Source of the DNA: a virus
IMG/VR virus record: IMGVR_UViG_3300027706_000275
Location: 1 to 33,597 of that record
DNA: 33,597 nt
Reading direction: 5' to 3' (one strand)
Positions 11,712-17,946 of this stretch are shown piece after piece (the first letter of the stretch is position 1; each line of letters starts with the position of its first letter). Under the pieces are notes generated by a model. That model was not told the DNA's origin and ran no database searches. It saw only the letters and a list, made by a program, of their open reading frames with translations. Made by a program: the position numbers and the translations under genes.

Positions 11712-12452
11712 ATGGCCCAGTACAGCTTCGGCTCGGGCGTGCTGTTCGGCACGCGCACCGACATCGCGACCGCGACGCCCGTCCGCTTCGGCGCGCTGCA
11801 GGACGTCTCGATCGACTTCACCTTCTCGCTGAAGGAGCTCTACGGGCAGTATCAGTTCCCGCTCGCGGTGGGCCGCGGCGCCGGCAAGATCCAGGGCAAG
11901 GCCAAGTTCGCGCAGATCAACGGCCTCGCGCTCAACTCGCTGTTCTTCGGTCAGGCGCAGTCGACGGGACAGACGCTGACCTCGCTGACGGAGGCGCAGA
12001 GCGTGCCGGCGTCGTCACCCTACACGGTGACGGTCGCCAACGCCGCCACCTTCGCGGTCGATCTCGGCGTGGTCTATGCCGCGACCGGCCTGCCGCTGGC
12101 CAAGGTCGCGAGCGCACCCGCCCAGGGCCAGTACGCCGTCAGCGCCGGCGGCGTCTACACCTTCGCCTCGGCCGACGCCGGTGCCGCGATCCTGGTCTCC
12201 TACACCTATACGCAGACGACCAGCGGCAGCAGCGCGACGATCACCAACCAGCTCCTCGGCGCCGCGCCCGCCTTCCAGGCGAATTTCTTCGAGACCTTCC
12301 AGGGCAAGCAGGTGAACCTGCAGCTCAACCAGTGCGTCGCCGACAAGCTGACGCTCGCCACCAGGCTCGAGGACTTCACCATCCCCGAGTTCGACTTCAT
12401 GGCCTTCGCCGACGCCGCCGGGACTCTCGGCAAGATCAGCCTGGCGGAGTAG
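11712..12452 (+). CDS. Major tail tube protein
   Basis: A 246-residue protein that polymerises into the tail tube. The beta-rich pattern and segments such as RFGALQDVSIDFTFSLKELYG, FPLAVGRGAGKIQGKAKF and LNQCVADKLTLATRLEDFTIPEF fit the tail-tube family. A Thr/Ser/Ala-rich central part (about residues 85-165) could be an exposed loop domain. The ATG is preceded by TAAGGAGATATAAGCC, one of the strongest ribosome sites in the window, consistent with the high copy number of tube protein. Confidence 0.82.
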   Translation: MAQYSFGSGVLFGTRTDIATATPVRFGALQDVSIDFTFSLKELYGQYQFPLAVGRGAGKIQGKAKFAQINGLALNSLFFGQAQSTGQTLTSLTEAQSVPASSPYTVTVANAATFAVDLGVVYAATGLPLAKVASAPAQGQYAVSAGGVYTFASADAGAAILVSYTYTQTTSGSSATITNQLLGAAPAFQANFFETFQGKQVNLQLNQCVADKLTLATRLEDFTIPEFDFMAFADAAGTLGKISLAE

Positions 12453-12458
12453 GGCATA

Positions 12459-12761
12459 ATGGAGCCAGTCACCATTCGCCTCGGCGGCGCCGACTTCGCC
12501 ATCCGGCCACTGACCTTGCGGCAGCTCCGCAGCGTACTGCCGGCCTTCGCGCGGGCGGGCGCCACCGGCGCGGAGGACGGCGTCGACGCCGCGGTCGAGA
12601 TCATCGCGGCGGCGCTCTCCCGCGACCATCCGGAGATGACGCGCGAGGCGCTGCTGGACACGCAGGCGAGCGTGCGGGAGCTTGCCGAGGCCGTCACCGC
12701 GGTTGCGCGCTTGAGCGGGCTCGTTGCCGTGGGGGAAGCGCAGGCGGGGAGCGTCCCCTAG
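12459..12761 (+). CDS. Tail assembly chaperone, N-terminal frame (gpG-like)
   Basis: A 100-residue protein beginning MEPVTIRLGGADFAIRPLTL, the usual start of tail-assembly chaperones that hold the tape measure before tube polymerisation. It starts six bases after the tube gene. Near its end are G-GGG-GAA (12731-12737) and C-CCC before the TAG stop (12755-12761), either of which could allow a -1 slip into the frame that continues to 13030. Together they would make a gpG / gpG-T pair as in lambda. Confidence 0.75.
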   Translation: MEPVTIRLGGADFAIRPLTLRQLRSVLPAFARAGATGAEDGVDAAVEIIAAALSRDHPEMTREALLDTQASVRELAEAVTAVARLSGLVAVGEAQAGSVP

Positions 12762-13030
12762 AGGAGGTCTGGGACGAGATCTACGGGAGCCTTGCGACCG
12801 TTTGCGGGTATCTGCCGGACGAGATCGACGGACTGACGCTTCCCGATTATCAGCGGCTTTGCCGCTACTGGACGAGCCATCCGCCCACGCATGTCCTGCT
12901 GCGGGCGTTCCTGGGATATCGCCACTCCCGCGCCCGCGCGCCAGCGGAGAAATCGAACCTCGGCGAGCTCATCGCGATGATGGGGCCGGGCGGCGTGCTC
13001 TCGGCGCGCGGACCCGGCGCCAAGGGATAA
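12758..13030 (+). CDS. Tail chaperone C-terminal extension (gpT-like), by -1 frameshift
   Basis: A 90-residue open frame (LEEVWDEIYGSLATVCGYLP ... GGVLSARGPGAKG) in the -1 frame relative to the upstream gene, with no ATG, GTG or TTG near its beginning despite a GAGGAGG at its front. The segment WDEIYGSLATVCGYLPDEID and the helix LPDYQRLCRYW look like real protein. It sits directly before the tape measure. The lack of a start favours programmed frameshifting from the upstream chaperone frame; the exact slip codon is not certain. Confidence 0.65.
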   Translation, partial: LEEVWDEIYGSLATVCGYLPDEIDGLTLPDYQRLCRYWTSHPPTHVLLRAFLGYRHSRARAPAEKSNLGELIAMMGPGGVLSARGPGAKG

Positions 13031-13039
13031 GGGGTCTTC

Positions 13040-14089
13040 ATGGCGGACAACCAGATCTCGGTCACGGTCAGCGCCGACGTGGCGCCGCTGCAATCGGCGC
13101 TGCAGCAGGCGAGTTCGGCGTTCCAGAGCGCCGCCGGCGTGATCGCCTCGACCGCCAGCGAGATCGCCAACAACGCGAAGCAAGCCTTCGACGGCATGGC
13201 CGCCGCCGCCCGGCAGACGAGCCAGGCGCTGCTCCAGGCGAGCCAGCAGACGGCGCAGCAGGAGATCCAGGCGGCGCAGCAGGCGAGTCAGCAGCTCGGC
13301 CAGAGCCTCGACCGGCAGCTCGCGGAGCACCGGAACTACGCGGAGAACGTCCGCAACCTGCACCGCGCCGCGGCGGGCGACGTCGCGAAGATCTGGGACC
13401 AGGCGGGGAGCCAGATCGAGCATACGCTGATGGCGTCCTTCAACCGGATGATCGTGAGCGGCGGCAACTTCCGGCAGCAGATGCAGCGGATCGCGGCGCA
13501 GGTCCAGACGGCGCTGCTGACGGCGATCGAGAAGACCGTGCTGAGCTGGATCACCGGCGAGAATGCCAAGACCGCCGCGACCGTCGCGGGCACCGCGGCG
13601 CGCAGCGCGGCCGAGGAGGCCGCGGGGAGCGCGGGCCTCGCCTCGATGGCGCTCAAGGCGATCAAGGCGATCGTGAACGACGCGTCGCAGACCTTCGCGG
13701 GCATCTTCGCCTTCCTCGCGCCGGAGATGGGGCCGGCGGCGGCGGGCCCTGCGGCGGCCGGCGAGGCCATGGTCATGGCGGCGGCGGGCGAGATCGTCTC
13801 GGCCGCGGGCGGCGCCTGGAGCCTGCCGGGCGACATGCTGGTCTTCGCGCACCAGGGCGAATCGATCCTGCCCGCGCATATCGCGGACCCCATGCGCGAC
13901 TTCTTCACGAGCGCGGCGGCCGGCGGCCGTGCCGACGGCGCAGCAGGCGGCGACGTGAACTTCCACGTCTACGCCATGGATTCCCGAGACGTCATGAACT
14001 TCTTCAAGCGCAACGGCGCCACGCTCGCCCGGGTGCTTAAGGGCGAGCAGCGGAACTTCAATGCCTCCCTCGCTTCGGCACTCCGGTAG
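13040..14089 (+). CDS. Short tail tape measure protein
   Basis: A 349-residue protein. The first half is helical and rich in Gln, Ala and Ser (QASQQTAQQEIQAAQQASQQ), and the second half has an Ala/Gly-rich hydrophobic stretch (about 215-255) and LVFAHQGESILPAHIADPM, an ending shared with phage tape-measure-like proteins. Position after the chaperone pair and before DUF2460 supports the role. It is far shorter than typical siphovirus tape measures (lambda gpH has 853 residues), implying a short tail comparable to gene transfer agent particles. Confidence 0.75.
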   Translation: MADNQISVTVSADVAPLQSALQQASSAFQSAAGVIASTASEIANNAKQAFDGMAAAARQTSQALLQASQQTAQQEIQAAQQASQQLGQSLDRQLAEHRNYAENVRNLHRAAAGDVAKIWDQAGSQIEHTLMASFNRMIVSGGNFRQQMQRIAAQVQTALLTAIEKTVLSWITGENAKTAATVAGTAARSAAEEAAGSAGLASMALKAIKAIVNDASQTFAGIFAFLAPEMGPAAAGPAAAGEAMVMAAAGEIVSAAGGAWSLPGDMLVFAHQGESILPAHIADPMRDFFTSAAAGGRADGAAGGDVNFHVYAMDSRDVMNFFKRNGATLARVLKGEQRNFNASLASALR

Positions 14090-15022: not shown

Positions 15023-15925
15023 ATGAAGACTGCCTCCGCGGCCCTTCAGGCTTTGTTGGCAACCAGCCAGTTCGCCGCCGCCGACCTCTACACCTTCACC
15101 CTCGCGGGCGGACAGGCGTTGCGCTGGACCGGCTTCGACACCGACGTGATCGCGAACGGCAACAGCTTCGCGAGCGGCGCGCAGGGCGGGCCGTTCTTCG
15201 ACCGCCAGGACAACAAGGCGAAGTGCCACTGGAAGATCGGCGTCGAGGTGGACACGCTGGTCTTCGACGTGATGCCCGGCAGCGCCAGCGTGAACGGGCT
15301 GCCGTTCCTCGAGGCGTGCCGGCTCGGCGTCTTCGACGGCGCGGAGCTGCAGCTCGAGCGCGCCTTCCTTGCGCCGCCGGCGGGCGGCCTCTATCCGCCG
15401 GTCGCGGCCTCCGCGGGCACGGTCGTCCTGTTCGTGGGGCGGGTCGCCGAGGTCGATCTCGGCCGCTCGCTCGCGACCTTCAACGTCAACAGCCACCTCG
15501 AGCTCCTGAACCTCAATTTGCCGCGCAACCTGTTCCAGTCCGGCTGCGTCAACTCGCTCTACGACGCCGCCTGCGGCGTCAGCCGGGCGAGCTACGCCGT
15601 CGCCGGCACCGCCGCCGGGGGCTCGAGCCCGAGCCTCGTCAACGCGACCCTCGTGCAGGCGAGCGGCTGGTTCGACCAGGGCTCGATCGGCTTCACGACC
15701 GGCCCGAACGCGGGCTTCGCGCGCACGGTCAAGAGCTATATCGCCGGCAGCCCCGGCACGCTCGCGCTGATCGCGCCGTTCCCCTTCGCGCCCGCCCCCG
15801 GCGACAGCTTCACGGCCTATCCCGGCTGCGACAAAACGAACGGCGCCGGCGGCTGCGCCAAATTCGCGAACACCGCGCGGTTCAAGGGGTTCCCGTTCGT
15901 GCCGATTCCCGAGACGGCGGTGTGA
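15023..15925 (+). CDS. DUF2163 baseplate hub protein (GTA gp13-like)
   Basis: A 300-residue protein of the DUF2163/BR0599 family that forms the tail hub between distal tail ring and tip. Segments typical of the family are ALRWTGFDTDVIANGNSFAS, KAKCHWKIGVEVDTLVFDV and NLPRNLFQSGCVNSLYDAAC. Four cysteines, 175, 184, 269 and 278, are arranged as two C-x8-C pairs, recalling hub proteins such as lambda gpL that bind an iron-sulfur cluster. The first ATG is at 15023, shortly after the repeat. Confidence 0.88.
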   Translation: MKTASAALQALLATSQFAAADLYTFTLAGGQALRWTGFDTDVIANGNSFASGAQGGPFFDRQDNKAKCHWKIGVEVDTLVFDVMPGSASVNGLPFLEACRLGVFDGAELQLERAFLAPPAGGLYPPVAASAGTVVLFVGRVAEVDLGRSLATFNVNSHLELLNLNLPRNLFQSGCVNSLYDAACGVSRASYAVAGTAAGGSSPSLVNATLVQASGWFDQGSIGFTTGPNAGFARTVKSYIAGSPGTLALIAPFPFAPAPGDSFTAYPGCDKTNGAGGCAKFANTARFKGFPFVPIPETAV

Positions 15926-16110: not shown

Positions 16111-16929
16111 ATGCGAGCGCTGAAGGGAGCCGTGCTCTTGGCCGGCATTCTTGCGGCCTGCCCGTGCCAGGATCCGGCAGCGGCGCAGTCCGCCGGCGCC
16201 ATCTACACGGGGCAGCTCGACATCTACAGCCTCGCGATCCCGAGCGGATGGACCGAGGTCGACGGCGGCGGGAACGTCGATGCCGCATTTGCGCCCCCTG
16301 GGGGCACCGCCTACGGCAGCATCTTTGTCGGCGTGATGTACGCGAAGAGGTCGCTCGAGGAAGAAGCCGATAACATGGCGGGGAATGAGGCAACCCAGGG
16401 CCGGCGGCACCTGTCCGTCGGCGGCATGCCGTGCATCTACTTCGCAGCCACGGGCAGCCGAGGCGAGCGGAATAACAACCTCGCGTGTCAATTCATGGCG
16501 CCGCTGGGCGGTGGCGCGGAACTGGTGACTTTCTTCATGGGAAGCGCTTCGCGGCCGCAAGACTTCGCATGGCAATCCGATGTCTTCTGGCAGGTGGTCG
16601 ATTCCATCTCGTGGGCGAATGGCACCGTCGCCGGCAGCGATCCGCAGGACACCGGCGACAACGTCGACGACGGGGAGGTCGAAGATATCCAGGATGCACC
16701 CGGGACCTGGGTCCTTTATGTTTCGCCGCCCGGCACCGCCGACGCGGATCCGCGCCCGCGGTACGACGAGTGGGTGGCGTTTCGGCAGTATCAGGGTCTT
16801 GCCAATTGCCTGGCTGCCCGGCTGCCCGCCCATTTGGAGTATTGGGACTCGGACCGCGATCTGTCCGTGCGGGCGCTGAACGGCATCTGCTTCAATCCCG
16901 ACACGCGAGAGATTCGGGGCGAGCATTGA
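16111..16929 (+). CDS. Secreted protein of unknown function (cargo gene)
   Basis: A 272-residue protein with an N-terminal signal sequence (basic MRALKG, hydrophobic core AVLLAGILAAC, then AAAQSAGA). A cysteine at 17 could be lipidated, but AQS|AG also fits ordinary cleavage. The mature region starts IYSLAIPSGWTEVDGGG, a pattern seen in PsbP/DcrB-like folds, and has six further cysteines. It is not a recognised tail protein and interrupts the conserved DUF2163 to NlpC/P60 order, so it is probably a lysogen-expressed passenger gene. GGGGGG lies upstream of the ATG. The 185 bases before it show no convincing gene or clear promoter. Confidence 0.6.
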   Translation: MRALKGAVLLAGILAACPCQDPAAAQSAGAIYTGQLDIYSLAIPSGWTEVDGGGNVDAAFAPPGGTAYGSIFVGVMYAKRSLEEEADNMAGNEATQGRRHLSVGGMPCIYFAATGSRGERNNNLACQFMAPLGGGAELVTFFMGSASRPQDFAWQSDVFWQVVDSISWANGTVAGSDPQDTGDNVDDGEVEDIQDAPGTWVLYVSPPGTADADPRPRYDEWVAFRQYQGLANCLAARLPAHLEYWDSDRDLSVRALNGICFNPDTREIRGEH

Positions 16930-17063
16930 CGGGTGTCCGGCTTGCCGTCGATCGAGACGGCATGACGGCGCCCGAGGCGCCATAGGCGACGAGCCGCGGT
17001 TCCTGCGCCGTAGGGTCCCGCCCCGTGCGGGGCTTTCCCGAGAAATCGACCGGCAGGTTTGAA

Positions 17064-17585
17064 ATGAGCCCGCTCGAGCTGCAGCAGCGCGCCGCCGTGG
17101 TGGCGGAGGCCGAGACGTGGCTCGGCACGCCCTATCACCACGAGGCGCGCATCAAGGGCCACGGCGTCGATTGCGCGCAGATCCTGGTGGGCGTGTTCGC
17201 GAATGTCGGGCTGATCGAGCCGGTGGCGCTGCCGCATTACCCGGCGGACTGGAACCTGCACCGCGACGAGGAGCGCTACCTCGACATTCTCGCGCGCTAC
17301 ACGCGCGAGATCGAGGCTCCGGTTCTTTGTCCGCTCGGCGTTGCCGCCAGCCAACCCGGCGCCTCGCGTAGCGTACTGCCCGGCGACATCGTGGTCTGGA
17401 AGTTCGGGCGCTGCTTCAGCCACGGCGCGATCGTGGTGGCCTGGCCCTTCGTCATCCACGCCTACGTCGGCAGCGTTTGCGTGCTGGAGGATGCGGAGCG
17501 GGCGTCCTGGCTCGCGCAGATCGGCGACGCCGAGGGCGCGGCGAGGAAGCCGCGGCCGCGGAAGTTCTTCAGCTATTGGAGTTAG
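17064..17585 (+). CDS. NlpC/P60 tail peptidase (GTA gp14-like)
   Basis: A 173-residue cysteine peptidase expected to cut peptidoglycan cross-bridges at the tail tip during DNA entry. Catalytic candidates are Cys37 (GVDCAQ), His120 (FSHGAI) and His132 (VIHAY). The N-terminus has the usual AVVAEAETWLGTPYHHEAR. Residues 94-104 (AASQPGASRSV), just before the conserved PGDIVVWKF, are encoded by a copy of a 31-bp repeat found elsewhere in the window, so this loop looks like an in-frame insertion. ATG 17064 is preferred over the upstream GTG at 17025. Confidence 0.88.
   Translation: MSPLELQQRAAVVAEAETWLGTPYHHEARIKGHGVDCAQILVGVFANVGLIEPVALPHYPADWNLHRDEERYLDILARYTREIEAPVLCPLGVAASQPGASRSVLPGDIVVWKFGRCFSHGAIVVAWPFVIHAYVGSVCVLEDAERASWLAQIGDAEGAARKPRPRKFFSYWS
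17343..17373 (+). repeat. 31-bp repeat, coding copy inside the NlpC/P60 gene
   Basis: It aligns without gaps to 32351-32381, 32404-32434 and 33141-33171; shared core words are CAACCCG and CGCGTAGCG. Here it is translated as AASQPGASRSV within the tail peptidase. Confidence 0.7.
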
Positions 17586-17603
17586 CTGCCAGCCATCTCA
17601 GTC

Positions 17604-17908
17604 GACATCAACCCTGACATCAACCCTGATTCGTCATCGCCGGGCTTGTCCCACGGCTGTCCGGTTCGCATTTCGACACAGCGCGGAAGAGTCTCCGCTT
17701 GGTCGCACACTCTCCCCTTTGTCGTCACCCCCGGGCTTGTCCCGGGGGTCCACGTTTTCTTTTGCCGCCAAAGAACACGTGGATGCCCCGGACAAGCCGG
17801 GGCATGACGACTCTTTAGAGTCTTCCTCGAATGGAAGCACAACCCATTTCGCCGAACCGGACAGCCGACACGTGGATGCCCGGCACATGGCCGGGCATGA
17901 CGAGAGTG
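17604..17908. repeat. Repeat-filled gap: 116-bp element copy 2 and partial copies
   Basis: The 361-base gap 17586-17946 holds no gene. It contains a 12-bp tandem duplication GACATCAACCCT (17604-17627), a degenerate half-hairpin (17632-17662), the full 116-bp element (17708-17823) in the opposite orientation to 5664-5779, and a shorter single-hairpin relative (17868-17908, ATGCCCGGC/GCCGGGCAT-like). The clustering suggests that this gap tolerates or attracts repeat insertion. Confidence 0.8.
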
Positions 17909-17946
17909 GGGGAATCGGCGCGAGAAGCGTTCAGGAGTGCAGCTGA

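Follow-up and report, generated by a model that had tools for sequence, protein, structure and literature searches.

A predicted programmed −1 frameshift on a G_GGG_GAA heptamer in the tail chaperone gene pair of an uncultured virus

The window, i.e. the whole 33.6-kb record of an uncultured virus that was analyzed here, contains a pair of overlapping genes, G and T, sandwiched between a tail-tube-type gene (phrog_8234) on the 5' side and a tape measure gene (phrog_2854) on the 3' side. Judging from the sequence, a −1 slip on a G_GGG_GAA heptamer close to the end of G would, very probably, yield two products, the G protein (100 residues) and a GT fusion (~190 residues), forming a tail chaperone pair. 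The pair very probably belongs to the gpG/gpGT-type tail chaperones, as an ordinary and well-supported case of a known kind. This proposal is based on the gene order, the −1 relation of the two frames, the lack of a T start codon, a slip heptamer that is conserved or replaced in place among relatives, purifying selection on T, and a G model that resembles known chaperones.

The features of the locus are listed in Table 1. The 3' end of G reads, in frame 0, GCC GTG GGG GAA GCG CAG GCG GGG AGC GTC CCC TAG, with the stop codon at positions 12759-12761. T is read in the −1 frame with respect to G, its frame being open far upstream and ending at position 13030. Most ribosomes translating the G mRNA would terminate at the G stop and release the G protein, while a minority would slip one base back on the heptamer, the tRNA-Gly re-pairing exactly on GGG and the tRNA-Glu shifting to GGA. 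The latter re-pairing relies on a G:U pair, which counts against the site. The slipped ribosomes would then read the −1 frame to its end and produce the GT fusion, predicted to comprise 93 + 97 = 190 residues, in which a SAGGERP linker is followed by the helical T core. If the pair works as gpG/gpGT does in lambda, the tape measure protein would be coated with G and the tail-tube subunit brought in by the T part, the slip rate fixing the G:GT ratio. We infer the slippage itself, its rate, and the division of labor between G and T.

Table 1. Features of the chaperone locus in the window.
Feature	Position	Strand	Basis or remark
Tail-tube-type protein	11712..12452	+	phrog_8234; named from gene order; bait for finding relatives
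G, predicted tail assembly chaperone	12459..12761	+	100 residues, frame 0; phrog_7947 (E=1e-7); gene order; model likeness to HK97 chaperone and N15 GT
G_GGG_GAA, −1 slip heptamer, best-supported frameshift site	12731..12737	+	Conservation among relatives
T extension, −1 frame	12737..13030	+	97 codons past the slip and a stop; phrog_8018 (E=0.001); dN/dS ~0.37 against L001
Possible short hairpin GGGGA-GCG-UCCCC	12746..12758	+	Minimum-energy fold; 8 nt past the heptamer
C_CCC_TAG, second slip candidate, not conserved	12755..12761	+	Comparison with relatives
GAGGAGG	12761..12767	+	T-frame codons GAG GAG GTC
Tape measure protein, short (349 residues)	13040..14089	+	phrog_2854 (E=5.8e-5)

Three further observations concern the surrounding tail genes. 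The small size of the tape measure protein would predict a short tail. A 272-residue ORF with a signal-like N-terminus (positions 16111-16929) lies between a baseplate-hub-type gene (15023-15925) and a gene at 17025-17585, and is possibly cargo. Lastly, part of the translation of some 360 bases between two tail genes (17585-17946; ORF 17341..17946) shows a PGLSRG...DKPGHDD pattern, which we take to be that of interspersed repeats in alphaproteobacterial chromosomes; this stretch could mark a prophage with an acquired host repeat.

Relatives were collected via the tube protein, an upstream protein (phrog_13692), cultured phages, and bacterial genomes; the tube and phrog_13692 protein queries succeeded, while the T protein alone retrieved none from either viral or genome contigs. 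The relatives with a named host are proteobacterial. An initial set of 67 pairs was selected by the presence of an open −1 frame of 55-120 residues past the G stop, and alone cannot prove that the −1 relation is universal. After removal of near-duplicates and of L076, in which the wrong ORF had been taken as G, 60 non-redundant loci remained. These yielded HMM profiles for G and for T, which were run against each of the 155 sequences in its three forward frames. This search retained 81 non-redundant loci encoding both proteins, L076 included, and set apart 22 duplicates, 6 sequences with G only, and 46 with neither (among those sorted, some end early and some match the query only in part). The recount lessens the selection bias of the open frame, though the profiles themselves derive from 60 loci for which an open −1 frame had been a selection criterion. 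In the start and linker analysis of the 60 loci, one slip site per locus was retained by a fixed preference order, on which the linker lengths of loci with several sites depend. The alignments cover 44 and 47 of these 60 loci, and that of G was built to stop at the slip, so the conservation at its end is no evidence. At five loci (L007, L008, L014, L085, and L124), the G/T pair is found 157 to 3796 bases past the tube gene rather than directly behind it, and something seems to have been inserted between the tube and chaperone genes.

In all 81 loci, T follows G in the −1 frame, never fused and never in the +1 frame, which strongly supports the probable programmed frameshift in the tail chaperone genes proposed by the first-pass annotation. 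Within the overlap, 72 of the 81 loci exhibit G_GGG_GAA (57 loci) or G_GGG_GAG (15 loci), and nine exhibit neither. Eight of these exceptions display GGGAAAC (2), CCCAAAA (2), GGGGGGA, GGGGGGG, GGGGGCG, or AAAAAAG, and L138 contains weaker candidates only. GGGAAAC, CCCAAAA, AAAAAAG, GGGGGGA, and GGGGGGG fit the X_XXY_YYZ rule, and L046 (GGGGGCG) and L138 (CCCTTTG, GGGGGAC, and others) are devoid of a strong slip candidate. The window heptamer itself, GGGGGAA, fails the strict rule, as its Y bases are G, G, and A, and represents the 'fivetwo' variant; some loci of the family obey the strict rule. Slip heptamers swapped for one another at the same place form the pattern expected of selection for slippage, and not for amino acids. 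A natural heptamer swap is found in the Burkholderiaceae relative L152, in which A_AAA_AAG, 51 nt upstream of the G stop, replaces the usual G_GGG_GAA.

The abundance of the motif at the end of G was compared with a synonymous recoding of this segment using the codon usage of each locus: G_GGG_GAR is observed in 52 of the 60 loci, for 5.3 expected. In the tube genes of the same 60 loci, it occurs in frame a single time in 14757 codons. With a tube protein 84% identical to that of the window, the nearest relative, L001, retains GGG GAA. Loci outside the motif definition behave alike. Among nine bacterial-genome loci fetched (one duplicate, two without a match), the six non-redundant ones with both genes are all −1, five with GGGGGAA and one with AAAAAAG, and of five cultured-phage loci, the four that possess both genes are all −1 with GGGGGAA or GGGGGAG.

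The first-pass annotation also stated that the downstream frame lacks a start codon, and this holds: in the window, the stretch of the T frame that runs from 90 nt before the G-run as far as the conserved T core is free of ATG, GTG, and TTG codons. Between the slip and the T core, 58 of the 60 loci are likewise devoid of a start codon, and none of the 60 exhibits a candidate T start preceded by a Shine-Dalgarno-like 4-mer. The T core begins 2 to 19 residues past the heptamer (median 10), after a Gly/Ser-rich linker, and the aligned T parts share the motifs W..[IL]Y, CG[YFW], TLPR, and YW...PP.H. AlphaFold2 predicts the T core as a confident helical fold, the first helix being located directly behind the linker; the T model did not return any fold match in the viral model library. 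Comparison of T with its L001 counterpart yields dN ~0.37 and dS ~1.0, whereas dN exceeds dS when this DNA is read in either of the other two frames, indicating that T is under purifying selection.

The best PDB fold matches of the G model (pLDDT 92) are 3fgx from Bacillus stearothermophilus (Z 7.0), 2ob9, the tail assembly chaperone of HK97 (Z 5.1), and YqbN 3klu (Z 4.7), all moderate with Z below 8. The HK97 chaperone superimposes with an rmsd of 4.1 over 81 residues but shares 10% identity with G, and its Z is too low to establish homology on its own. Among the viral models of BFVD, several named tail assembly chaperones are returned, including the N15 protein GT (TMq 0.74; E 0.03), together with the 'Pre-tape measure frameshift protein G' of phage Sano (E 0.07), none of the BFVD matches having an E below 0.001. 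The predicted G fold therefore supports the tail-chaperone name without proving it, and the assignment is borne by the gene order and the frameshift. Neither G nor T of the window has a Pfam match, and a sequence search against solved structures gave nothing meaningful. Phage_TAC_19 (E 0.004) and Phage_TAC_12 (E 0.04) are each matched by a single G protein among those of 44 relatives. Phage_TAC_6 (PF09550), presumably linked to gene-transfer-agent chaperones, was rejected as a candidate, having no match in the window.

The first-pass annotation had named two slip candidates, G_GGG_GAA and C_CCC_TAG, both of which are present at the positions it gave (Table 1), and had suggested that the second would couple slippage to the stop codon. 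There, the tRNA-Pro would move from CCC to CCC with the stop codon in the A site, slippage competing with termination. In favor of this site, the P-site re-pairing would be exact while the A site holds a stop codon, its fusion would likewise comprise 190 residues, and C_CCC_stop is found in two other loci, L018 and L046. However, it amounts to 3 of the 60 loci, for 0.87 expected by synonymous recoding, and the nearest relative reads GTC TAG at its place, so that the coupling to the stop codon was not borne out. Besides, L018 (GGGAAAC) and L046 (GGGGGCG) have alternative sites of their own upstream, and the C-run of the window has another possible explanation, as the 3' arm of a hairpin. It can pair with GGGGA into a five-pair hairpin that is present in the minimum-energy fold, at the spacing usual between a slip site and its stimulator. 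In the window, the RNA that follows the slip folds with no greater stability than its shuffled versions (z +0.68 and +0.44), and over the 60 loci the downstream folding displays a weak signal, with a mean z of −1.11 against −0.38 in a control region. As the window is close to its shuffles and the excess over the 60 loci is slight, we do not claim a stimulatory structure. At the sequence level, only G_GGG_GAA is clearly above chance, and C_CCC_stop is not. Since G_GGG_GAR far exceeds its recoding expectation while C_CCC_TAG is not conserved, we place the frameshift at G_GGG_GAA, and a slip at C_CCC_TAG is very unlikely. We give the same low credence to an arrangement of two slip sites in series, in which the stop-coupled C_CCC_TAG would catch the terminating ribosomes, the C-run serving alternately as hairpin arm and slip site, and the G:GT ratio responding to the supply of release factor.

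The frameshift on G_GGG_GAA must also be weighed against two explanations that dispense with slippage. T might be translated separately, by re-initiation past the G stop at a non-standard codon behind GAGGAGG, such as ATC at 12779-12781. This strong Shine-Dalgarno-like stretch was said to lie at the beginning of the downstream frame, and it does, but it reads as T-frame coding sequence, it is not retained in L001 (GAGGCGG), and no standard T-frame start comes before the core. The ATC codon, 11 nt past GGAGG, falls inside the first predicted helix of T, which it would cut. Re-initiation would furthermore account neither for the conservation of the heptamer nor for that of the −1 frame, and we regard it as extremely unlikely. 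Alternatively, G and T might be a single gene broken by the loss or gain of a base, through an assembly error or gene decay, an idea favored by the origin of the window from an uncultured virus record. The −1 relation is yet found in every one of the non-redundant loci, including those of cultured phages and bacterial genomes, and a single fused frame in none, leaving this explanation a practically negligible probability.

Xu, Hendrix and Duda are said to have described, in 2004, a conserved tail-chaperone frameshift of dsDNA phages. In lambda, gpG and gpGT both associate with the tape measure protein, and T provides the contact to the tube subunit (PMC5009743). The window resembles lambda in the order tube, G, T, and tape measure, in the −1 shift close to the end of G, and in a T devoid of its own start, but it differs in the heptamer, GGGAAAG in lambda and G_GGG_GAA here, in the absence of a Pfam match for its G and T, and in the absence of a viral-library fold match for its T. 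GGGGGAA is the 'fivetwo' motif of PRFect and the uniform sequence of about a thousand SEA-PHAGES motifs, the second tRNA re-pairing by G:U; these frameshifts share the backward shift and the identical heptamer with the window (PMC10885494). For corynephage phi16, the same heptamer and backward shift have been proposed for comparable tail genes, with an internal SD and a pseudoknot (PMC5506516), neither of which is established for the window, whose named-host relatives are proteobacterial. Stenotrophomonas phage Suso (MZ326866), with weak similarity in G, has a tape-measure chaperone pair annotated as a two-piece frameshift, 'slippery sequence identified'; however, T_TTT_TTC is the only homopolymer site that a simple scan finds in its overlap, and its T is unmatched by the T profile. 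The use of GGGGGAA for phage tail-chaperone frameshifts is already on record, and the principle is well known. A literature search found no paper on a frameshift in the window phage's own family, which is not proof of absence.

In three cultured relatives, Brevundimonas phages Strzyga and Polewnik and Acinetobacter phage vB_AbaSI_5, the pair is annotated as separate hypothetical proteins, and GGGGGAG or GGGGGAA is found at the right place. The families phrog_7947 (G) and phrog_8018 (T) are both listed as of unknown function, and the present analysis provides them with a likely function and a fused reading. The 81 loci, with their interchangeable GGGGGAA, GGGGGAG, GGGAAAC, CCCAAAA, and AAAAAAG, constitute a natural series for the effect of the heptamer on the chaperone ratio.
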